IMG/VR virus record: IMGVR_UViG_3300030328_000704
Location: 2,556-24,620 of that record
From: a virus
DNA: 22,065 nt
Strand: one strand, 5' to 3'
The position numbers were made by a program, and so were the translations under genes. The notes beneath the pieces were generated by a model. It searched no databases. It was not told the DNA's origin and saw only the letters and a list, made by a program, of their open reading frames with translations. Position 1 is the first letter of the stretch. Every line of letters begins with the position of its first letter. This document shows, one piece after another, positions 2,506 to 21,303 of this stretch.

Positions 2506-2528
2506 AAACTAAAACGGAGTTTTAGTTT
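2506..2528 (-). other. Perfect 10-bp hairpin over the stop codon of the SSB-like gene
   Basis: AAACTAAAAC (2506-2515) and GTTTTAGTTT (2519-2528) form a perfect 10-bp inverted repeat with a 3-base loop. It includes the TAG stop of the gene at 2509-3279 and sits directly before the GC-rich hairpin at 2477-2500. The two together look like a tandem 3'-end structure on the minus-strand transcript. The stem is AU-rich, so its strength alone is modest. Confidence 0.5.
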
Positions 2529-3279
2529 GAGATGTCTCTTCCACATCTGCTTTTGTTCGCACGTTTCCTTTTGAGACGTTACCTGAAAAGTCCTTTGCAT
2601 TTAAATACAAAGTCTTATCTTGTTGTCCCATAATTCTGTCCATGTTTACAACCCAACCATACCAAGAACCTTTATCGTTCTTTTGTAGATTTGATTGAAG
2701 ATTGTAGACTACCCCATGCATAGGTGGTACAGCGAATCCGCCTTTACCATCGTCAATTTGAACAGATTTCATCATTGAATTCCATTTTTTACTGACGCTC
2801 AACTGTGTTGATTTCATAGTAATTAAAGCAGGACTGTATCCTCCTTGTTTGTTTTCTATCATAACATAGTAGTAAGCTGTCTCTTCTATGTAGTTACCGT
2901 TTGGTAATCTAATTTTAGAGCCATCTCTTTTACCTGTTTGAATCACCGGACTTCCTGGTGAGTGTGTAGCCACAGGAGCACCTGGACCATCACCTCTATC
3001 AGACCATTCCGGATAGTCTTTTTTGTAGTAACAAGGAATAACCTTGATACCTTTCTTACCATCGAACAAGTCGTTGGTAACAGTATTGTAGATCATACCA
3101 GCTTTGGCACCTTCTACAAACTTTGCATCACCATCAGTCACCTGTGGCGATAGTTGTCCTAAGATTCTGATAAACGGTAACGCCATATCTTCTTGCGTCA
3201 TGTTTTCAAAACCTTTAGAGAGATCGTCTCCGAATAACGAAACCGATCCGTTTTGTTTAGCTTTTATTTCATTAGCCAT
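2509..3279 (-). CDS. Uncharacterised phage replication-block protein, possible ssDNA-binding protein
   Basis: A 256-aa soluble protein of unknown family. A single-stranded DNA-binding role is suggested by position (directly before the primase), by length, by a body rich in beta-forming and aromatic residues, and by a polar tail with an acidic patch ending ADVEETSQTKTPF. The terminal Pro-Phe recalls the tail end of bacterial SSB, which recruits partner proteins; the acidity is much weaker than in true SSB, so this is only a hint. Residues 75-110 (GIKVIPCYYKKDYPEWSDR) are distinctive, but I do not recognise a named motif. GGAGG precedes the ATG at 3279 with good spacing. A structural or recombination-mediator role is also possible. 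Confidence 0.8.
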   Translation of the reverse strand: MANEIKAKQNGSVSLFGDDLSKGFENMTQEDMALPFIRILGQLSPQVTDGDAKFVEGAKAGMIYNTVTNDLFDGKKGIKVIPCYYKKDYPEWSDRGDGPGAPVATHSPGSPVIQTGKRDGSKIRLPNGNYIEETAYYYVMIENKQGGYSPALITMKSTQLSVSKKWNSMMKSVQIDDGKGGFAVPPMHGVVYNLQSNLQKNDKGSWYGWVVNMDRIMGQQDKTLYLNAKDFSGNVSKGNVRTKADVEETSQTKTPF

Positions 3280-3293
3280 TATACATCCTCCAT

Positions 3294-3893
3294 TTATTTT
3301 TTCCGGCTGATTTTTGTTTTGTCTTTAATCCATAGACTAAAAACATCAGAAGGCATGTCAAGGCCGGCCTTGACACGCTCCTCATATAGGGCTGTCAATG
3401 TATTCCACGCTACATCAGATTTCTGTTGTGGCGTAAACCCATTAGCAACCGCAAGGTCCATCATTTGATTCGCCTTGTTATCTTCTCCTTTACCAAAACT
3501 TACTGTGACATTGTTTTTAATAATATCACCTAACCCCTGGTCTCGAAGCCATTGATAGGCACTTTCTCTTCTTAAATCATCTCTAGGAAGAGTAGCCCTA
3601 AATTCTTTTTTAACAGATACTTTACTACCATCTGCTAGTTTAATTTCTTGTAATCCCTGCTCTTGAAGAAGCTCTGGTATAACTCTAGAACTAATATCAT
3701 CAGCCTCTGCCTTCTTGGCTTTTAGCTTATCTTCTAATTCTGCTATTTGATCTTCTTTCTCTTTTAACAACACACATTGTTGAGCAATGTCTGTTACTTC
3801 TACGTTGTCTAACATATCAGACGTGTCTTTTAACATTTCACTTCTTACGTCAAATGTACCACTGCCTGTAAATGTTTTTATTTTAGTACTCAT
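3294..3893 (-). CDS. Conserved-looking phage protein with N-terminal coiled coil
   Basis: A 199-aa protein of unknown function. Residues about 40-75 (LLKEKEDQIAELEDKLKAKK onwards) form a clear heptad coiled coil. A short beta segment (IKLADGSKVSVKKEFRATLP) follows, then a helical C-terminal half ending in a basic tail. The coiled-coil-plus-small-domain layout is loosely like phage Gam-type nuclease inhibitors, but I see no specific motif and do not assign that role. The AAGGATAACAATG start at 3893 is well placed. It lies two bases after the gene at 3896-4303 and 14 bases before the SSB-like gene, so all three probably share one transcript and act early, around DNA replication. Confidence 0.8.
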   Translation of the reverse strand: MSTKIKTFTGSGTFDVRSEMLKDTSDMLDNVEVTDIAQQCVLLKEKEDQIAELEDKLKAKKAEADDISSRVIPELLQEQGLQEIKLADGSKVSVKKEFRATLPRDDLRRESAYQWLRDQGLGDIIKNNVTVSFGKGEDNKANQMMDLAVANGFTPQQKSDVAWNTLTALYEERVKAGLDMPSDVFSLWIKDKTKISRKK

Positions 3894-3895
3894 TG

Positions 3896-4303
3896 TTATC
3901 CTTTCTGATAGAGATCGAAATTTATTGGATAGTATTTAGCTTCTCTTCGATCCCATTTGAGAAGGTTAAATTTACCGTTTGTTTTATCACAAACGATTGC
4001 ACAAGATATTCCTATAATAGCAGGATCTCCTGTTAACAATACATAGTCTTGTTCTCTAAAGTCTCTTAAGTTTTTTTGCATTTTAAAAACAAAAGGACTT
4101 GATGAGAATATTATCTGTGAATCTGGGCCATAGTTAGGCAAACAAATTACAAGATAACCAAAATCAGACGCACCTAATATGTTTATATTTGCAGGTGGAT
4201 GCTGCAGTACATACACAAATTTCTCTTCAGGATTGTTTTTTTTAAAGTCTAAAAACTCTCTTAAAGAATTTGGTTTATATAATTCAAAAATTTTATTCTT
4301 CAT
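3896..4303 (-). CDS. Hypothetical protein, first gene of the minus-strand replication block
   Basis: A 135-aa protein of no family I can name. It has a helical N-terminus followed by alternating hydrophobic strands and a C-terminal segment DYVLLTGDPAIIGISCAIV then LLKWDRREAKYYPINFDLY, compact and probably globular, with no signal peptide or clear membrane span. As the promoter-proximal gene of the block, about 15 bases after the predicted transcription start, it would be the first replication-arm product made. AGAGAATAATAG provides a modest ribosome site. A DNA-metabolism or regulatory role is guessed only from position. Confidence 0.75.
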   Translation of the reverse strand: MKNKIFELYKPNSLREFLDFKKNNPEEKFVYVLQHPPANINILGASDFGYLVICLPNYGPDSQIIFSSSPFVFKMQKNLRDFREQDYVLLTGDPAIIGISCAIVCDKTNGKFNLLKWDRREAKYYPINFDLYQKG

Positions 4304-4315
4304 TCTATTATTCTC

Positions 4316-4344
4316 TTGACATCTTATATAGTAGTACTTATATC
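4316..4344 (+). promoter_or_regulatory. Sigma70-like promoter for the SNF2 helicase operon
   Basis: A perfect TTGACA (4316-4321) is followed after 17 bases by TATATC (4339-4344), or after 19 bases by TATCAT (4341-4346). The predicted start at about 4351 leaves about 13 bases before the ATG at 4364, enough for the AGAAAG ribosome site. The -10 match is imperfect. The box set overlaps the opposite-strand promoter. Confidence 0.6.
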
Positions 4345-4352
4345 ATTGTCAA
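4325..4352 (-). promoter_or_regulatory. Sigma70-like promoter for the minus-strand replication block
   Basis: On the minus strand a perfect TTGACA (4352-4347) is followed by TATATA after 16 bases (4330-4325) or TATAAG after 18 (4328-4323). Transcription would start near 4317 and reach the ATG at 4303 with a very short leader. It occupies the same DNA as the plus-strand promoter, so one polymerase should exclude the other. Confidence 0.6.
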
Positions 4353-4363
4353 GTAGAAAGAAT

Positions 4364-5797
4364 ATGAATTATAAATTTAAAACGAAACCATATGAGCATC
4401 AGCTTACTGCGTTAGAAAAGTCATGGGATAAAAAAGAATATGGCTATTTTATGGAGATGGGTACTGGAAAATCTAAAGTGTTAGTAGACAATATGTCTAT
4501 GCTTTATGATAAAGGTAAAATAAATGGCGCTTTAATCATAGCGCCAAAAGGTGTTTACACCAACTGGTTGTCTCAAGAAATACCAAACCATTTAGTTGAT
4601 CACATAAAACCCAAAATGGTCTTATGGACTGCGACAACATCTAAAACTAAAGAGAAAGAGTATCAACAATTATTTGAAACTGATCTAGATCTTCATATTC
4701 TTATTATGAATGTTGAAGCATTTAGTACAAAAAAAGGTGTAGAGTTTGCCTATAAATTTTTAAGAACTCATAAAACTCTTATGACTGTGGATGAATCTAC
4801 AACCATTAAAAATCCAAACGCTAAAAGAACTAAAAATATATTGTTGCTTGGCAAACACGCAAAGTACAGAAGAATACTTACAGGTTCACCAGTAACTAAA
4901 TCACCCCTAGATTTATATAGTCAATGTGCTTTTTTAGATGAAGATCTACTAGGACATGTGTCTTATTACACATTTCGAAACAGATATGCTGTAATGGTAG
5001 ATAGAAATTTTGGTGGGAGAAGAGTACAAATCGTAGGATCTTATCAAAGACTAGATGAGTTAGAAGAGATATTAAAAGAGTTTTCATACAGAGTGCAGAA
5101 AAAAGATTGTTTAGATTTACCTAAGAAAATATTTATGAACAGAATTGTTGAGCTAACCAAAGAACAGAAAGAAGCCTATGCTACTATGAAATCAGCGGCC
5201 CTCGCTCAACTAAAAGGTAAGATGGCTACAGCTCCTCATGTATTAACGCAACTTATGCGTTTACATCAGATTACATGCGGTCATTTAAAATCTGATGACG
5301 GTGTTATTACTAATTTTAAACATTCTAGAATTGAAGAATTAATAGATGTTATTGATGAGATGGAAGGTAAAGTTATTATTTGGGCTAATTATGTTCACGA
5401 TATAAAAGAAATAACGAATGCTTTAGAAGATGAATATGAAGAAGGATGTGTTGCTCAATATTATGGAGAAGTATCTACGGAAGACAGGCAAAAAGCTATT
5501 AAAAATTTTCAAGATCCTAAATCAAAAGTTAGATATTTTGTAGGTAATACTCAAACTGGAGGATATGGTATTACTCTTACAGCAGCTAGTAATGTGATTT
5601 ATTATTCTAATAGTTATGATCTAGAAAAAAGATTACAATCAGAAGATAGAGCACACAGAATAGGTCAGCATAAGCCAGTAACATATGTGGATCTCATAGC
5701 AGAAAAAACTGTGGATGAGAAGATTATTAAAGCTTTAAGGAAAAAAATTAATATTGCATCTGAAGTTATGGGTGATACAGTTCAAGACTGGATATGA
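4364..5797 (+). CDS. SNF2/DEAD-like superfamily 2 helicase
   Basis: An ATP-dependent DNA translocase (478 aa) expected to act in replication, recombination or remodelling of phage DNA. Motifs run in order: Q-like KPYEHQLTALEKSW (8-21), Walker A MGTGKSK (32-38), motif Ia LIIAPKGVYTNW, Walker B variant VDESTTIKN, motif III LTGSPV, motif V GGYGITLTAAS, and motif VI RLQSEDRAHRIGQ with its arginine finger. The HRIGQ form is typical of SNF2 proteins. It lacks accessory domains, and its length is usual for phage members. I place the start at 4364 rather than 4316, because the shorter form has AGAAAG upstream and a better N-terminus, and the longer start would lie on the promoter's -35 box. The stop overlaps the next ATG by four bases. 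Confidence 0.93.
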   Translation: MNYKFKTKPYEHQLTALEKSWDKKEYGYFMEMGTGKSKVLVDNMSMLYDKGKINGALIIAPKGVYTNWLSQEIPNHLVDHIKPKMVLWTATTSKTKEKEYQQLFETDLDLHILIMNVEAFSTKKGVEFAYKFLRTHKTLMTVDESTTIKNPNAKRTKNILLLGKHAKYRRILTGSPVTKSPLDLYSQCAFLDEDLLGHVSYYTFRNRYAVMVDRNFGGRRVQIVGSYQRLDELEEILKEFSYRVQKKDCLDLPKKIFMNRIVELTKEQKEAYATMKSAALAQLKGKMATAPHVLTQLMRLHQITCGHLKSDDGVITNFKHSRIEELIDVIDEMEGKVIIWANYVHDIKEITNALEDEYEEGCVAQYYGEVSTEDRQKAIKNFQDPKSKVRYFVGNTQTGGYGITLTAASNVIYYSNSYDLEKRLQSEDRAHRIGQHKPVTYVDLIAEKTVDEKIIKALRKKINIASEVMGDTVQDWI

Positions 5798-5994: not shown

Positions 5995-6206
5995 AACCTA
6001 TAATGATAACATTACTTTATCTCACGTTTGGAGGAGATATAAAATTAGATAGTTTTGAAATACAAACTAGTTGTAGTAGTTGGTTTCATTCTAATATTAC
6101 TACTGTTGAAAAGAAAAAGAAAACCTTTATGAGTAATCATTATTATCACACCTATAAAGGTAAGAAAGTTATAGGATATGTTTGTGGAGGAGAAGAACCT
6201 AGATGA
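5991..6206 (+). CDS. Small hypothetical protein
   Basis: A 71-aa protein of unknown function. Residues 3-14 are hydrophobic (PIMITLLYLTFGG), possibly a short signal or membrane anchor but brief for one. The rest is polar with two cysteines (28 and 65), and the C-terminus HTYKGKKVIGYVCGGEEPR is basic then acidic. It is coupled by ATGA overlaps at both ends, upstream to the two-span membrane protein and downstream to the 2OG oxygenase; GGAGGAG near its end serves as the ribosome site for the next gene. Such small proteins recur in marine phages by my recollection, but I cannot name a family. Confidence 0.65.
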   Translation: MKPIMITLLYLTFGGDIKLDSFEIQTSCSSWFHSNITTVEKKKKTFMSNHYYHTYKGKKVIGYVCGGEEPR

Positions 6207-6796
6207 GCAAATTTATTCCAACGTCACCAAATTTTACTTTTCCATATTTTGGACCTTTAATAGGTAAAACATGTGTTACACCACAACAACTTAAGAATAT
6301 AAAACAAATTTGTAACAAAAAAATAAGTCATCGTAAAAATTTAGCAGGTCATATAAAAGATGAATATATTGTAGATCCTAGGATGTATGACACTATTCTA
6401 GGTCCTCAACTAGAAAGTTTTAAAGGTTGTTATAAAATGTATTATAACAGAGAATTAAAATCTATAAAAACTAAAGTAGCGTGGGTTAATTATATGAAAG
6501 CAGGGGATTTTAATCCTCCTCACATTCATACCAATTGTAGATTTTCTTCTGTATTATTTGTGCATATTCCTAAAGAATTAAAAAAAGAATGTGACAAACA
6601 TGAAGGCACCAGCGAAGGACCCGGCTGTATAGAATTTCGTTATGGAGAAGCTCAATTAAGGGATAATCTTAATGTTCATACTATCTTTCCTAAAGAAGGA
6701 GATATGTTTATATTTCCTGCATTTGTTACACACTTTGTGTATCCGTTTAAAAGTAAAAATGTTAAAAGAATATCTGTGGCTGCCAACTTTGACTAG
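6203..6796 (+). CDS. 2-oxoglutarate/Fe(II)-dependent oxygenase (TIGR02466-like)
   Basis: A predicted non-haem iron dioxygenase (197 aa) coupling oxidative decarboxylation of 2-oxoglutarate to hydroxylation of an unknown substrate. The double-stranded beta-helix signature is visible: NPPHIHTN (His107, His109) as the first iron ligand region, GDMFIFPAFVTHFVYPF with the distal His177, and KRISVAANFD, where Arg189 is placed to bind the 2OG carboxylate. The spacing matches putative 2OG-Fe(II) oxygenases common in marine phages. It is the last gene of the plus-strand operon, joined to the small hypothetical protein by an ATGA overlap, with a strong GGAGGAG ribosome site. The substrate could be protein, nucleic acid or a small molecule; nothing in the sequence decides. 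Confidence 0.85.
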   Translation: MSKFIPTSPNFTFPYFGPLIGKTCVTPQQLKNIKQICNKKISHRKNLAGHIKDEYIVDPRMYDTILGPQLESFKGCYKMYYNRELKSIKTKVAWVNYMKAGDFNPPHIHTNCRFSSVLFVHIPKELKKECDKHEGTSEGPGCIEFRYGEAQLRDNLNVHTIFPKEGDMFIFPAFVTHFVYPFKSKNVKRISVAANFD

Positions 6797-6855: not shown

Positions 6856-7233
6856 TTATAGGTCTTGTAAACCAGTCTCGCGGTTCAAATATTTATATTC
6901 GATTTTATGAATATCAAAATCATCCATAATTTTTTTACAGATCTCTGTATGGTTAAAGTCCCCACAAGAATAAACATCCATTTGTAATAGAGCAGGCTTA
7001 GGCTCATCCCAAATGTGCATAGCAATGTGTGAAGTTTCTATAATAGCTACTGCAGTGATGCCTCTGTTCCCTGGCATATTACAATACTTTACATAAGGAC
7101 CCATAAATACTTTCATATTTATAGACTCTATAAATTCTCTCATCCAGTTTTGTAATTGTTCTTCGTCTGTCGGTGGTCGACTAGCTTCGGCGCGAATAAT
7201 TAAGTGCTTATGCACCAGAAGACTGTTTTTCAT
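6856..7233 (-). CDS. speD: S-adenosylmethionine decarboxylase proenzyme homologue (SpeD family)
   Basis: SpeD enzymes cleave themselves to create a pyruvoyl group and decarboxylate S-adenosylmethionine for spermidine synthesis; some bacterial homologues act instead on arginine or ornithine. This 125-aa protein has the family core AIIETSHIAMHIWDE (63-77), with the pyruvoyl-forming Ser68 and His69, and ALLQMDVYSCGDF (81-93), with the catalytic Cys90. The usual cleavage site is Glu-Ser; here the residue before the serine is Thr67, with Glu one place earlier, and Trp-Asp-Glu replaces Trp-Pro-Glu, so the substrate is uncertain. I chose ATG 7233, four bases after the endolysin stop, over 7269, which would lie inside the endolysin gene. 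It is last in the late lysis cluster. Phage speD genes are known in cyanophages. Confidence 0.82.
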   Translation of the reverse strand: MKNSLLVHKHLIIRAEASRPPTDEEQLQNWMREFIESINMKVFMGPYVKYCNMPGNRGITAVAIIETSHIAMHIWDEPKPALLQMDVYSCGDFNHTEICKKIMDDFDIHKIEYKYLNRETGLQDL

Positions 7234-7237
7234 GACG

Positions 7238-7690
7238 CTAGATCTCTTCGTATTGAGTCTTGCCAGCATCGTTACGAAAAGCTCTTAAGGTTTGTTTACG
7301 ATTGCCGTCTTCATTATATGACACGTGGATCCATCCGCTGTCGGGAGCTCCTGTGTAAAATTCTAATATTGCTTGATCAAATTCTAGATTCTCAACAATC
7401 CAGTTAAATAATTCATTGTTATCTACGGTATGACATTCGAAGTCTGCCGCTTGGCCTTTGGCGTGTTGCGAATTGACCGAACTGCCTATAGCCACACATA
7501 AGTCTGGAGATCTGTATCCCGAGGATACACTAACTACACCCCACTTATCTCTAACAGGTTGTAGTACATTTTCACAAAGCAACTTTAAATTTTCTACGTG
7601 TTCTTCTGTAGGTTCATTTGAGATGCCTTTACGATCCGCGGTCTGCGATTTGGTAAGCTCTCTTAAAGAAAAGTTAGAACTTAATTTCAT
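7238..7690 (-). CDS. Endolysin, M15-family zinc peptidase (M15_3-like)
   Basis: A predicted peptidoglycan peptidase (150 aa) that cuts the stem peptide to lyse the host. The zinc site is complete: SQHAKGQAADFE (74-85) gives His76 and Asp83, and GWIHVSY (119-125) gives His122. The preceding VSSGYRSPD (55-63) is the usual substrate-side motif of M15 carboxypeptidases. There is no signal peptide, so release should depend on a holin. I place the start at 7690 (MKLSSNF), overlapping the upstream stop by ATGA and preceded by GGAAAGGATGATAGG; the longer form from 7750 would cover the end of the membrane protein gene. The catalytic residues look intact and the length is normal for a single-domain phage endolysin. 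Confidence 0.88.
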   Translation of the reverse strand: MKLSSNFSLRELTKSQTADRKGISNEPTEEHVENLKLLCENVLQPVRDKWGVVSVSSGYRSPDLCVAIGSSVNSQHAKGQAADFECHTVDNNELFNWIVENLEFDQAILEFYTGAPDSGWIHVSYNEDGNRKQTLRAFRNDAGKTQYEEI

Positions 7691-7881
7691 CCTATCATCC
7701 TTTCCAACATAAAGAGTACTGCAGTTCCCGCAACAGTCAAAAGAACCCAATAGAACTTGTCTATCTTACCGCCCAATTTTTCTACATCTTCATGTAAATG
7801 TGCCACGTTTCTTTTTAATCCGGTAATGTATCCATATAAAGATACAATATGTTCTCTAGTTGTTTTAGGTTTTATATTCAT
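7687..7881 (-). CDS. Holin-like small membrane protein (XhlA-like layout)
   Basis: A 64-aa protein with an N-terminal helical charged part, a short coiled-coil segment (HLHEDVEKLGGKIDKFYW, about 28-45), and one membrane span near the C-terminus (YWVLLTVAGTAVLFML, about 44-59). This order of coiled coil followed by a single C-terminal span is that of XhlA-type haemolysin/holin partners. Its place directly before the endolysin, with an ATGA overlap, supports a lysis role. The start at 7881 shares a base with the TAA of the 1419-aa virion gene, after an AGAGGA ribosome site. A spanin-like or other lysis-accessory role is the alternative; the function is inferred from context. Confidence 0.65.
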   Translation of the reverse strand: MNIKPKTTREHIVSLYGYITGLKRNVAHLHEDVEKLGGKIDKFYWVLLTVAGTAVLFMLERMIG

Positions 7882-10800
7882 TAAACCATTCCTCTTTGTT
7901 TTAATCTTATTGCTTGTTCGTCGGGGGATAATAGTGCTGTTTCTGATACTGTCAACCCTGTTTGTGGGATAACTTCAGCAGTGGTTTGTTGAACTATTGG
8001 TGTTGGTTGTTTTGGTAAAGGTGGTGTTTTTATTTCTGGTTGTGGTATTTCTGCTACCTGTTCTACTTCTATATTCTCTGTCGGAGCTTCACTTCTTAAA
8101 TCTTCTCTATCATAATAGAAGTCTTCACTTAAAGAATTATATTTTAAGTTAGATAAAACATCTTTTAATTCATATTTTGGATATAACTCATCATCAGATA
8201 AATTATATGAATAATCAAATTGTGTTTCATTATCTCTAATCTTTTTAATTTTCTTTTTAAATCTTGACTCAGAAAAATTAACAGGTACAAATTCACCGTT
8301 CATTAAACTGTTAATAGTTTTACTACTTATACCTTTTCTTTCTTTAAATTTTTGTCTGATATCATACTCATCAACATCAAATTTTTTAGCTGCTTGAATA
8401 GCTTGATAAACTTCTTTTTGTAATCTAAATGCTTCTTTTTGAACAGCTATAAATTCATCAACTAAAGCGTCTCCAGTTCTTGCTCTAATGTCTAACGGTG
8501 TATAAAACTTTTCAGCCGTATAAACTTCACTTCTAATTTTAGTATAATCTGTAATAATGTTATCTAAACTTGATAGAATATCTACGTTGAATGGTTTAAG
8601 TCCTGTGCTTGCACCAATAGCTACGTCAGAAGATTCTTTTATTGTTCCATACGCAGAAGGTTGTCTTGTTATAGCATCCCTAACTTTTTGACTTGTTGAA
8701 ATTATACCTGGCTCAATTACATCACCTATATGTTTAAGACTTTTTGTAAACTTTGTCCAATCACTATCTGAATCACTCCAAATTCTTCCTCCTGTTTTTT
8801 TTCTTCCGCTAAATACTTCGGCGAAAGGTTGAAAACCAATAGGCTGTGAAATGTAAGGTTCAAGAAAAGTTCTAATAGGACCTCCCTTTCCAAAAATAAT
8901 ATTAGCATAATCTGCAAAATTTAAGTTTTCTTTTAATATTTCTTTTTCTCTTTTCTTTGCAAAGAAAGCTTCAATAGGTTCTGTTACAGCATGTTGAGGA
9001 ATAAAGTCTCCTAAACTTACCGCTTTAAATTTTCCTTTGTCTGCTTTAGTTAACGCAACAATGTTATCGTTTCTTTGATAGTCTGGTGCAAAAAATTGTC
9101 TATAAGCTTCCATGTCTTCTTCATTTAATTTTGTAAATTGACTATACAGTCCTTTTACTCCCATACTCAGTCCACCTAAAGTAGTGTATAAACCAAGCAG
9201 TCCTCGAAGACCCATTGCTCTTAATTCTGGATTAGTTGATGAAGCTTCTTTCATTGATATAAAGAGATTGTTTGAAGTGGTTCTTGTCATTTCTGCAGGA
9301 AAAGCTACGAAGTTACCGAAAGGAGTTCTTCTTAAACCTATGATAGCTTTAGGAACTTTACTGTAAGTTGGAATTGTATTTCTTGTGTACCAAGCAGCTG
9401 CTTGTCTGATGGCTTCGTTAATATCTACTTTTTGTCCAGTTAAAGTTGTATCTAATAATTCTCGTCCTGCTATTTCTTTAAACCATTGTCTAGCATTACG
9501 TATATCATTTTTAAATAAATCTTTTGTAAAAGACTTATACCAATTGTAAGTAAACCATTTCCAAACGTTATCACCTCCAGCATACATTCTTGCTGCTTTT
9601 TCTGTTAAAGGATTTTTTTCTAAAAATTTAGCTAATCCTTCTACACTTGCAAATTTACCATTTCTTACTTCTCTTAATACTGCTTGAAGCTCTGACGCTA
9701 CAATGTTTTCATCTAATACTCCGTATTTAATACCTTCATCTATGTTGTTTAATAATCTTAATTCAGCTTGAGCACTTCCTTTTCCTGCATTCCATATATC
9801 ATCTGCTACCATTGCAATAGCATCTGTCGCTGAAGCTCTTCCACCAATCACTCCTCTTGCAAGAGGGAACATCATAGCAGAATAAAAGTTTCTAACTTGA
9901 GTTTCTGGAGACAATACAGTCTTACCATATTGTGCTCCGGCTTTTAATTGTAAAGCATTTTTATAAACACCACTTTGTAAAAGACCATCTAATATTCCTT
10001 TAGAAGAAGTGATAGCGTCAACTAAATCTGAGGCTCCGTACAAAGGATTTCTTTGTGATTGTAATAATGTTTTCATAGTACCAATACCTTTAGCACCAGA
10101 GACAATTTTCGGAGCAGCAATCCCCGCTCTTTTAGCAGCTTCTTCTGATTTAAATAAAATACCAGCTCTTTGTAATTCTTTAGCCAACCTATCAAACAAC
10201 ATTTTATTTGTTGATTGAGTTACCATTGAAGACATAGTTGTCATAACTGAAGCTTTTAAATTATTTTTTTGTCCTAATAAATTTTTAATAACCGTAGGTA
10301 ATTCATCACCTGTTGCTATAAAGTTTTTTATTCTTAAGTATTTTCCAATTTCGTTTAAATTTTGAATAGGATCATACATATCTATTTTACCTTTTCTTAA
10401 AACTTCTCTCACCATAGCTTCGGCTTGTAGTTCTCTAGCTCTACCTTGAGATACACCCGAACCACCATAAACTTTTCTTGCTTCAACTCTAAATACAGCA
10501 CCGCCTTTTCCATTAATTAAATTAAGAGCAAATTGTTTTGCTTTTTTAAACAACGGTGAAGTTTCTTTTACTGCGTAACCAGGGTTTTCAAATATAGCAA
10601 AAGACTTTCTCATGTATCCTTTTAAATTTTTTAACACTGCAGTTTTTAAATCACCTGATGGTAATAAATCACCAAATGTTTTTCGTATTTGATCTATATC
10701 TTTTTTTAAAGCTTGTGATGTAACCTGTAATTCTTTAGGTAAAGCTTTTAATGTTTTTTGTCCTTTTAAAAATTCCAACACACCATCTAAATAATAGTCT

Positions 10801-12140
10801 TGACTAGCAGGTGAGTTGTGCACTCCTTTGTTGTATCTACCCTCAAAAGATTTAGCTAATCTGTAAGATCTTTTTTGTATGCTTTCTAATAATTTTTCTG
10901 TTCTTCTTGCAGCTCTTTTTATTTCTTGTCTTGCTGCTGTGTTTAAAGAATATTGAACACCTGTTTGAGTATCTAATGATCTAAGATAAGCTAATTTATT
11001 ATCTAATTTTTTTAACGCTGCCTCTATTGGTTTTGCACTTTCAACAGAAAACGTTCTCCATTTAGAAAATTCAGGTAGTGTTGCTTTCCATGTAGCTTTT
11101 GCCGGTGCACCAAACGCAGGTAATACAACTTTTGTTCCTAAGCCGGCTATAAAGTCTGCACCTCTTAATGTTTGTTTTGGAATCTGTCTTAATCCCGGCA
11201 CTCTTGCACCTAGGTATGCTAGGGGACGCACTGCGGTGTCAATAGCTCTTGATCCTATACCCAAGATAAAAGCTCCAGGCTTATACAATCCATATTTAGC
11301 ACCAATAGGTAATGCTTTACCAGCTAATGCAAATCCTATACCAAACGTTGCACCTTCAGCACCAAATTTTAATTTGTTTATAAATTTAGCTACTGCTAAA
11401 TCTTTACCTGTTTTACCCTCTTCACTTACAGGTTGATAAAGTGCGGTTGGTCTATTAGGTTCTGCAACTATAAAGTCCGCTGCACCTAAAGATAAACCAC
11501 CTTGACCCGATCTTCTAGCAATACTTGTAACAGTTTTAGCTGATCTTCTTAAAAATTTGTTTTCTATTTTAGATAATGATGCTCTTAACGCATTATATTT
11601 TTTACGAATATTAAATAGTTTAGGTATTTGATTTACAAGTTTTAATGTTAACGTGCTAGGTAAACCATATTGAGTTCCTATTCTAACAATGTCACCAGTT
11701 AAAGTTTTAGGACTACCATGATCTCTAACAAAATCTGTTTGAGCTTTTTGTAGTTTTTGTGTAAAATTTGTATCAGCAGCATAATCAACAGGTAAAGTTA
11801 ATAAACTTAATGCACCGCCTACAATATTTGCACCTGCTCCTGCTAATGCAGCTTGAAACTCTCTACCGGCTGTTGTTTGATCTGATTCTAGTTGTTCATC
11901 TAAAATTAAATCTTCGCCTCTTTCTTTTCTTTTTTTGTTAACATAATCTAAAGCAAATGTAAAACCCAAGTTTTTAGGATCAGCTCTTAATGATTCTATA
12001 TAGCCGGCTGCTTTTGTTTTTGGTTTAACAACCCTGACTCTGTCACCAGGATTGGTTTCTATTATGTTCTTTCTTGTATCAATATCTTTTACAGTTTGTT
12101 CAAACTCTTTTAAAGTTATATCTTTAAATGGATCGGCCAT
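7881..12140 (-). CDS. Very large virion protein (1419 aa), candidate DNA-ejection/internal core protein
   Basis: I know no firm family. The size, the position at the end of the structural run directly before lysis, and repeated Gly/Ala hydrophobic stretches (about 97-116, AALAGAGANIVGGALSLLTL; about 259-310; about 975-1000) fit a large protein injected into the host envelope, comparable in size and place to the T7 gp16 internal virion protein. I see no lysozyme or transglycosylase active-site motif. The middle is long, helical and Lys/Arg/Glu-rich. The C-terminus (about 1360-1419) is Pro/Gln-rich, then LSPDEQAIRLKQRG. The start at 12140 has an AGGAGG site, and only one base separates it from the preceding stop. 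A tape-measure or adhesin role is possible. Confidence 0.82.
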   Translation of the reverse strand: MADPFKDITLKEFEQTVKDIDTRKNIIETNPGDRVRVVKPKTKAAGYIESLRADPKNLGFTFALDYVNKKRKERGEDLILDEQLESDQTTAGREFQAALAGAGANIVGGALSLLTLPVDYAADTNFTQKLQKAQTDFVRDHGSPKTLTGDIVRIGTQYGLPSTLTLKLVNQIPKLFNIRKKYNALRASLSKIENKFLRRSAKTVTSIARRSGQGGLSLGAADFIVAEPNRPTALYQPVSEEGKTGKDLAVAKFINKLKFGAEGATFGIGFALAGKALPIGAKYGLYKPGAFILGIGSRAIDTAVRPLAYLGARVPGLRQIPKQTLRGADFIAGLGTKVVLPAFGAPAKATWKATLPEFSKWRTFSVESAKPIEAALKKLDNKLAYLRSLDTQTGVQYSLNTAARQEIKRAARRTEKLLESIQKRSYRLAKSFEGRYNKGVHNSPASQDYYLDGVLEFLKGQKTLKALPKELQVTSQALKKDIDQIRKTFGDLLPSGDLKTAVLKNLKGYMRKSFAIFENPGYAVKETSPLFKKAKQFALNLINGKGGAVFRVEARKVYGGSGVSQGRARELQAEAMVREVLRKGKIDMYDPIQNLNEIGKYLRIKNFIATGDELPTVIKNLLGQKNNLKASVMTTMSSMVTQSTNKMLFDRLAKELQRAGILFKSEEAAKRAGIAAPKIVSGAKGIGTMKTLLQSQRNPLYGASDLVDAITSSKGILDGLLQSGVYKNALQLKAGAQYGKTVLSPETQVRNFYSAMMFPLARGVIGGRASATDAIAMVADDIWNAGKGSAQAELRLLNNIDEGIKYGVLDENIVASELQAVLREVRNGKFASVEGLAKFLEKNPLTEKAARMYAGGDNVWKWFTYNWYKSFTKDLFKNDIRNARQWFKEIAGRELLDTTLTGQKVDINEAIRQAAAWYTRNTIPTYSKVPKAIIGLRRTPFGNFVAFPAEMTRTTSNNLFISMKEASSTNPELRAMGLRGLLGLYTTLGGLSMGVKGLYSQFTKLNEEDMEAYRQFFAPDYQRNDNIVALTKADKGKFKAVSLGDFIPQHAVTEPIEAFFAKKREKEILKENLNFADYANIIFGKGGPIRTFLEPYISQPIGFQPFAEVFSGRKKTGGRIWSDSDSDWTKFTKSLKHIGDVIEPGIISTSQKVRDAITRQPSAYGTIKESSDVAIGASTGLKPFNVDILSSLDNIITDYTKIRSEVYTAEKFYTPLDIRARTGDALVDEFIAVQKEAFRLQKEVYQAIQAAKKFDVDEYDIRQKFKERKGISSKTINSLMNGEFVPVNFSESRFKKKIKKIRDNETQFDYSYNLSDDELYPKYELKDVLSNLKYNSLSEDFYYDREDLRSEAPTENIEVEQVAEIPQPEIKTPPLPKQPTPIVQQTTAEVIPQTGLTVSETALLSPDEQAIRLKQRGMV

Positions 12141-13948: not shown

Positions 13949-13949
<1 letters not shown>
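13209..13949 (-). CDS. Virion protein, Ala/Gln-rich helical (246 aa), possible ejection protein
   Basis: A small helical protein rich in Ala, Gln and Gly. Residues about 70-125 (FMSPYQQEVIDTSLAAMDR, then AAGAGAFGGGREAAAL) recall a motif common in marine podovirus structural proteins, by recollection only. A long Gln/Ala/Glu helix spans about 130-200. The C-terminus LLGLGIGAAGLAGAVRGFR is a short Gly/Ala hydrophobic segment with a basic end, suited to membrane contact. The size and C-terminal hydrophobic patch are like T7 gp14, the smallest of the three ejection proteins. The start shares a base with the TAA of the 798-aa gene, after AAGGAAAAG. No catalytic motif is seen. Confidence 0.78.
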
Positions 13950-16345
<2,396 letters not shown>

Positions 16346-20649: not shown

Positions 20650-21303
20650 TCACTTTTTAAACCAGGCTGGAAGTCCTAAATGAAGTCTTCCGTCATTTAT
20701 GTTTTTATCCGCGTCTTTGGATTTTTGGTCGTTATAGTGTAGAAATACTTGGGCACAGTTATCACCTTGAAACTCTTCTCTCCAATGTTCTAGCTCCATA
20801 CCTCTATAAACTAACATATCTCCAGGTTTTAAATTAATAGATATGCCTTTATTATTACTATTAACTGTAAATTTTTTACCATCAGGTATACCAACATTTT
20901 TCTTTGGCTCTAAATGAATAGGCCAAGGGTCACCTCCTAGATTTAAAGTTGTAGATATTTCACAACTAAACCTATCTTTATGTCTTTTTAATACATCTCC
21001 TGTTTTATAAATTCTAGCGTAAGAATAAGTAGGATATAATTTTAGTCCTGTTTTCTTTTCCATAATAGGTAAAGTTCTCATAAGCAAAGTTTCCATAGCT
21101 ATATCTCCATAGTGAGAATATGTATTTGGAACTTGTCCTTCTGCCCACGTTCCCCATTCCTCTGTAAATTGAGAGATATATCTTTGATCAAATAAAGTTC
21201 TTGCAACAGTTCTTTTAAGTAAAAAATAATTGTAAACAAATTCAGCTAGATCTTTTGGTACAGCTTCTCTAATAACTATATATTTATTTTTTTTAAAACT
21301 CAT
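20650..21303 (-). CDS. 2OG/Fe(II)-dependent oxygenase, prolyl-4-hydroxylase-like
   Basis: A predicted 2-oxoglutarate-dependent hydroxylase (217 aa). The HxD iron motif is KRHKDRFSCEISTTLNLGG (106-124; His108, Asp110), followed by INLKPGDMLVYRGMELEHW (156-174) with the distal His173. The C-terminal NCAQVFLHYND (182-192) continues the core in the usual phage P4H-like form. The N-terminus (IREAVPKDLAEFVYN) is a helical lid region. The HxD motif distinguishes it from the other two oxygenases here, which have HxH-type TIGR02466 motifs, so they are probably not recent copies of one another. The start overlaps the upstream stop by ATGA. Substrate unknown; phage protein or host targets are both possible. 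Confidence 0.87.
   Translation of the reverse strand: MSFKKNKYIVIREAVPKDLAEFVYNYFLLKRTVARTLFDQRYISQFTEEWGTWAEGQVPNTYSHYGDIAMETLLMRTLPIMEKKTGLKLYPTYSYARIYKTGDVLKRHKDRFSCEISTTLNLGGDPWPIHLEPKKNVGIPDGKKFTVNSNNKGISINLKPGDMLVYRGMELEHWREEFQGDNCAQVFLHYNDQKSKDADKNINDGRLHLGLPAWFKK

Follow-up and report, generated by a model that had tools for sequence, protein, structure and literature searches.

The SpeD homologue of pelagiphage HTVC201P is an experimentally proven pyruvoyl-dependent L-arginine decarboxylase with a kcat/Km of 290 M-1 s-1 (PMC9992855, PNAS 2023). The enzyme has no detectable ornithine or lysine activity, and an E. coli speD mutant did not regain spermidine with it (PMC9992855). The SpeD of cyanophages such as S-PM2 is a proven AdoMet decarboxylase (AdoMetDC). 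In bacteria and archaea, SpeDA and SpeDC are substrate-shifted pyruvoyl decarboxylases derived from SpeD (PMC10407285), to which the protein studied here is likened by description only. The catalytic residues of T. maritima SpeD are S63, H68 and C83, the histidine being situated five residues past the serine (PMC10407285).

The SpeD homologue and its predicted active site

The window, i.e., the whole stretch of 22,065 nucleotides analyzed here, is part of a 29,203-base viral record. Its plus strand is full of stops at 6856..7233, and the speD open reading frame is read from the minus strand. The 125-aa product was assigned as a SpeD-family pyruvoyl-dependent decarboxylase proenzyme on the basis of PF02675, PHROG 3125 (S-adenosylmethionine decarboxylase), an AlphaFold model and a phylogenetic tree. 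It matches Pfam AdoMet_dc (PF02675) at the superfamily level with 62.4 bits (E 6e-17, cut-off 25), and scores 50.8 bits against the AdoMetDC equivalog NCBIfam TIGR03330, below the cut-off of 75.65. AlphaFold modeling with 34 aligned relatives as input gave a mean pLDDT of 92.5; the best PDB matches of the model are T. maritima AdoMetDC 1vr7/1tlu (E 1e-5, TM 0.74), with A. aeolicus AdoMetDC also among the best and 2iii among the top matches. The predicted structure has the AdoMetDC fold. Comparison with relatives yielded dN/dS values of 0.03-0.11, approximate because synonymous sites are near saturation, which indicate purifying selection. A chance reading frame or an artefact is ruled out by the Pfam profile, the fold and dN/dS, and speD is a real gene encoding a SpeD homologue. 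The first-pass annotation, made from the sequence alone, had placed such a homologue at 6856-7233, four bases after the endolysin gene; the reading frame, the Pfam match and a gap of exactly four bases (7234-7237) agree with it.

The self-cleavage bond is predicted to lie between Thr67 and Ser68 (7030..7035, minus strand), the latter being the putative pyruvoyl serine; this Thr-Ser pair is common to the relatives, HTVC201P included. The candidate catalytic cysteine is Cys90 (6964..6966, minus strand; T. maritima C83), and the catalytic and processing histidine would be His73 (7015..7017, minus strand; T. maritima H68), both invariant across the SpeD types aligned. Trp75-Asp76 (7006..7011, minus strand) replaces Trp-Pro, and Trp-Asp is common to the phage homologues. 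The protein possesses the serine for the pyruvoyl group together with the catalytic His and Cys (S68, H73, C90). The earlier annotation had listed Ser68, His69 and Cys90 as catalytic; the serine and the cysteine stand, whereas the histidine has to be reassigned to His73, because the histidine of the family sits five residues after the serine. H69 is conserved too and corresponds to T. maritima H64; in the alignment of all SpeD types, only S68, H69, H73 and C90 are invariant.

Thr at the bond to be cut and Trp-Asp in place of Trp-Pro had been read correctly at first pass, but the idea of an altered cleavage site as a peculiarity of this gene was mistaken. Thr precedes Ser in 83 of 84 phage homologues, with Lys in the remaining one, and Asp follows Trp in all 84 (the window protein, those of 80 IMG/VR loci, and HTVC201P, S35-C6 and HTVC115P). 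Both motifs also occur in further pelagiphage isolates and in nearly every marine bacterial relative from a scan of 84,980 species genomes, the patterns for which included IETSHI and hence favour such sequences, half of the scan resting on the N-terminal HKH pattern. As judged from these alignments, Thr-Ser with Trp-Asp is the normal signature of the clade, not an oddity of the window gene. A new self-cleavage chemistry unique to Thr-Ser is out, since the pair is the clade norm and is found in the active enzyme of HTVC201P, which, to judge from its activity, must self-process at Thr-Ser. E. coli AdoMetDC is cleaved at Lys-Ser; thus, a Glu preceding the serine is not required for processing.

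A proline is fully conserved in bona fide AdoMetDCs, and its loss marks arginine decarboxylases according to the authors who described it (PMC10407285). In the AdoMetDC-active proteins of S-PM2 and P2559S, Pro follows Trp, where the window protein has Asp. A second candidate Pro, located before Gly-x-Thr in cyanophages, aligns near P54 of the window protein and is not conserved in its relatives. Thermus phage phiYS40 (L143), whose SpeD is AdoMetDC-active (PMC9992855), displays Trp-Ile-Asp-Glu where others have Trp-Pro-Glu. Given the phiYS40 sequence, the Pro rule as published may have exceptions, or may refer to another Pro.

Relatives and phylogenetic position

The HTVC201P enzyme (AXH71538) resembles the window protein in family, length, HKH N-terminus, ETSH cleavage site, WDE motif, catalytic His and Cys, and pelagiphage carrier; it differs in sharing 40% identity with it and in having Phe where the window protein has Met72 before the catalytic His. 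The closest homologues among named phages, those of HTVC103P, HTVC109P and HTVC115P, are of the SpeD type, show the same motifs at 45-50% identity and are annotated as S-adenosylmethionine decarboxylase. Cyanophage SpeD shares the fold family and the Ser, His and Cys with the window protein, but is shorter, carries Glu-Ser and Trp-Pro and belongs to a separate clade. Marine bacteria (Pelagibacteraceae, HIMB59, Candidatus Thioglobus and streamlined gammaproteobacteria) encode SpeD proteins with the same Thr-Ser and Trp-Asp motifs at about 45-55% identity; unlike the window gene, theirs are chromosomal, and in one gammaproteobacterial group the gene adjoins that of spermidine synthase.

IQ-TREE with the LG+C20 model was applied to 72 proteins and 124 columns, with the validated phage ornithine decarboxylases (ODCs) left out. 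A branch supported at 99/95 separated all Thr-Ser/Trp-Asp proteins from cyanophage, Thermus, Croceibacter and further Glu-Ser proteins. Within the Thr-Ser/Trp-Asp clade, the window protein falls in with phage sequences from IMG/VR and HTVC201P with other pelagiphages, with bacterial sequences in between. The alignment is short, the branches on the Glu-Ser side are very long and the deeper forks are weak, and this tree does not place the window group nearer to an arginine decarboxylase (ADC) or to an ODC ancestor. A phylogeny had been proposed as a check at first pass; in it, the window protein does not join the cyanophage AdoMetDCs, and clustering with them is excluded by the tree and by the motif, which is Glu-Ser there.

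A window-type speD (77% identity) was also observed beside a phage helicase gene on a contig titled Thermoplasmatales archaeon MAG (L146), which probably stems from a phage and was assigned to the wrong genome bin. Microcystis phage MaAM05 (L093), together with L094, L205 and L206, represents a separate large-phage SpeD group with the pattern TQPYVFPY...PED.GITG...AESH..H(S/T)F; in MaAM05, two SpeD-type genes adjoin speE and constitute a candidate SpeDC/SpeD pair.

Gene order around speD

In the window, speD follows the gene of an M15 peptidase endolysin (7238..7690, minus strand; Peptidase_M15_3, E 5e-15; PHROG 894 endolysin, E 6e-41). The start of the latter is overlapped by the gene of a 64-aa protein with a C-terminal hydrophobic stretch (7687..7881, minus strand), which is conserved upstream of the endolysin in relatives, yielded no family match and could possibly be a holin or part of a spanin. 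Upstream and in the same direction, the structural module includes a 1419-aa virion protein (7881..12140, minus strand), which in tblastn matches a structural protein of Pelagibacter phage HTVC027P and a protein of 023Pt_psg01. A convergent block meets this operon from the other side; its last gene encodes a 2OG-Fe(II) oxygenase (6203..6796, plus strand; PF13759, E 1.2e-16), and it also contains a SNF2-type helicase gene (4316..5797, plus strand; PF00176, E 2.9e-23). The structural/lysis operon ends with speD, after which no convincing terminator hairpin was seen.

The nearest annotated phage is 023Pt_psg01, which by its name belongs among the HTVC023P-type genomes (PMC9599517). In that phage, the convergent block that ends in the helicase gene comes right after the M15 endolysin gene, without speD; because a close relative has no speD there, it is an optional gene at the operon end. 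Across 80 viral relatives, speD follows an M15 endolysin gene at a distance of -11 to +18 nt in 41, and a convergent helicase gene lies downstream of speD in 60. The endolysin gene is situated downstream of speD in 17 others, where the neighbours also look like late genes; 14 loci have no M15 endolysin in the flanking stretch examined, and 8 are too short to tell. Unlike the window gene, speD sits between exonuclease and ribonucleotide reductase genes in HTVC201P and near DNA polymerase/exonuclease genes in HTVC103P, HTVC109P and HTVC115P, and a setting among polymerase, exonuclease and ribonucleotide reductase genes is found in HTVC201P, HTVC109P, HTVC115P and others.

Late expression had been put forward at first pass. 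The operon placement behind it recurs, as the 41 of 80 loci demonstrate, while late timing itself is plausible only: as the last gene of the structural/lysis operon, speD is probably expressed late in this lineage, gene order being the guide. Placement next to the endolysin is only a small novelty, though a recurrent and possibly informative one.

Several other genes of the window were recognized. The product of 931-2460 is a primase that combines PriCT-1 with a primase domain of the AEP-TOTE type (PF22548, E 2.7e-15). Three adjoining genes at 2509-4303 belong to the families of cyanophage Pam3 gp34, gp33 and gp32 and are kept downstream of the helicase in most speD loci. Two proteins are of the 2OG-Fe(II) oxygenase family (PF13759; 6203-6796 and 21300-22019), and the product of 20650-21303, without a Pfam family, matches a 023Pt_psg01 gene annotated as ferrochelatase/Fe(II) oxygenase. 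The 798-aa protein encoded at 13949-16345 has an aspartate run, glycine-rich tracts and repeated GGRVGF-like motifs, and no Pfam match.

Substrate and role of the enzyme

We consider it probable that the window gene encodes a self-processing arginine decarboxylase, likely made late in infection by an HTVC023P-type pelagiphage, the agmatine of which would become putrescine in the host. The class-1b-like SpeD proenzyme would cut itself between Thr67 and Ser68, Ser68 would be converted to the pyruvoyl cofactor, and His73 and Cys90 would take part in processing and catalysis. Once matured into two chains, the enzyme would decarboxylate a basic amino acid; the likeliest is L-arginine, which would give agmatine, and agmatine-using enzymes of the host would lead from there to putrescine and polyamines during infection. 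With its gene at the end of the structural/lysis operon, the product would probably appear late.

The change of substrate suspected at first pass is well supported, as the HTVC201P enzyme, which carries these motifs, acts on arginine rather than on AdoMet. The window protein falls in the HTVC201P clade, apart from the AdoMetDCs (99/95), and its Thr-Ser/Trp-Asp residues are identical to those of HTVC201P. The counterpoint is that this sole kinetically tested homologue is only 40% identical: family, active-site residues, clade, gene order and purifying selection come from the present analysis, arginine activity comes from the homologue, and we infer the processing of the window protein, its timing and that the host makes use of agmatine. 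For Pelagibacter, a PLP-dependent arginine decarboxylase was reported together with agmatine-using genes (PMC9992855), a gene content consistent with agmatine being useful to the infected SAR11 cell. An onward polyamine pathway encoded by the phage is disfavoured: among 25 of the 37 families matched by 114 selected open reading frames of the window record and three near-complete speD phage records, AdoMet_dc is the only polyamine enzyme. With no second polyamine enzyme among these families and no thymidylate synthase of the hypermodification type in 18 speD-bearing records (see below), the enzyme most likely ties in with host metabolism.

Alternatively, the protein might be a SpeDC-like pyruvoyl-dependent L-ornithine decarboxylase that yields putrescine directly, which we regard as possible but unlikely. 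The phage homologues LBP and UCP01-04, called similar to HTVC201P, are ODCs, and one of them is substantially active on both substrates (PMC9992855); moreover, in the authors' own tree HTVC201P falls within SpeDC (PMC10407285). Direct comparison with HTVC201P nevertheless favours arginine. Gln, Thr, Phe and Tyr were named as diagnostic of SpeDC (PMC10407285); a guessed SpeDC motif, Q-T-S-H-x-x-F-H-x-W, returned none or chance matches only in the viral contigs. A further point for ornithine comes from the bacterial relatives, for which 44 genomes bearing a Thr-Ser/Trp-Asp SpeD, some of them possibly incomplete, were searched for partner genes. In every one of the 15 genomes with speE, all titled gammaproteobacterial (L182, L188, L194 and 12 more), this spermidine synthase gene directly adjoins the Thr-Ser speD in divergent orientation, a setting reported for SpeDC genes. 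The speE-type clusters in the literature hold genes of SpeDC (or true AdoMetDC) rather than SpeDA, and in our analysis nothing speaks more strongly than this adjacency for ODC activity in at least some members of the Thr-Ser clade.

An agmatine deiminase-like or arginase/agmatinase-family gene is present in 41 of the 44 genomes. As a control, agmatine deiminase was counted in the family of one such genome and found in 6/6 members with speD versus 38/46 without. A specific co-occurrence with Thr-Ser speD is therefore not discriminating, and agmatine deiminase represents background capacity with no link to speD, being nearly as common without it.

Help with DNA packaging or lysis timing had been suggested for a polyamine at first pass. 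An accessory role in lysis or packaging, in which a late amine would condense head DNA or affect the envelope or the timing of lysis, is compatible with either substrate and seems doubtful to us. Its basis is the recurrent adjacency to the endolysin gene (directly after it in 41 of 80 loci, with the endolysin downstream in 17), which has to be set against the 14 loci without M15 endolysin in their flanks and the other pelagiphages in which the neighbours of speD encode exonuclease, polymerase and ribonucleotide reductase. Cargo genes can, besides, be taken up at the convergent end of a long operon, and 023Pt_psg01 has no speD there. The stronger form of this proposal, that the HTVC023P-type lineage fixed an arginine/ornithine decarboxylase as a late, endolysin-coupled gene whose amine would serve DNA condensation, packaging or lysis control and not replication, is equally doubtful.

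It is very improbable that the window protein is a true AdoMetDC with unusual motif residues, although it has the same fold and catalytic residues, its relatives lie beside speE in 15 genomes and Trp-Pro is absent from the active phiYS40 enzyme. The HTVC201P protein, in which these motifs are identical, lacks AdoMetDC activity (PMC9992855), and the clade stands apart from all Glu-Ser enzymes. The N-terminal domain of spermidine synthase was not found in 29 of the 44 bacterial genomes, where an AdoMetDC would accordingly have no partner. Thirteen of the 15 genomes with speE encode another SpeD in addition, class-1a-like and about 250 aa long, which scores far below the TIGR03331 cut-off; the one copy read out, from L204, has Glu-Ser. 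In these 13 genomes, either the Thr-Ser copy is not the AdoMetDC or both copies are. Finally, the idea that the enzyme provides putrescine to hypermodify thymine in phage DNA is hardly credible: some HTVC023P-type phages do carry thymidylate synthase and alpha-glutamyl/putrescinyl-thymine pyrophosphorylase (PMC9599517), but 18 speD-bearing records of 27-75 kb yielded no thymidylate synthase of the thymine-hypermodification type.

By its sequence, the window enzyme is a member of a phage enzyme family known from earlier work. Pelagiphages rank with the most abundant viruses on Earth, and pipelines annotate such genes as AdoMet decarboxylase. The marine Thr-Ser/Trp-Asp clade, which spans phages and several streamlined bacterial groups, is probably mis-annotated and would have arginine or ornithine, one step further back, as its substrate. 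With speD recurrently linked to the endolysin gene, it can be tested when phages make such amines and what for.
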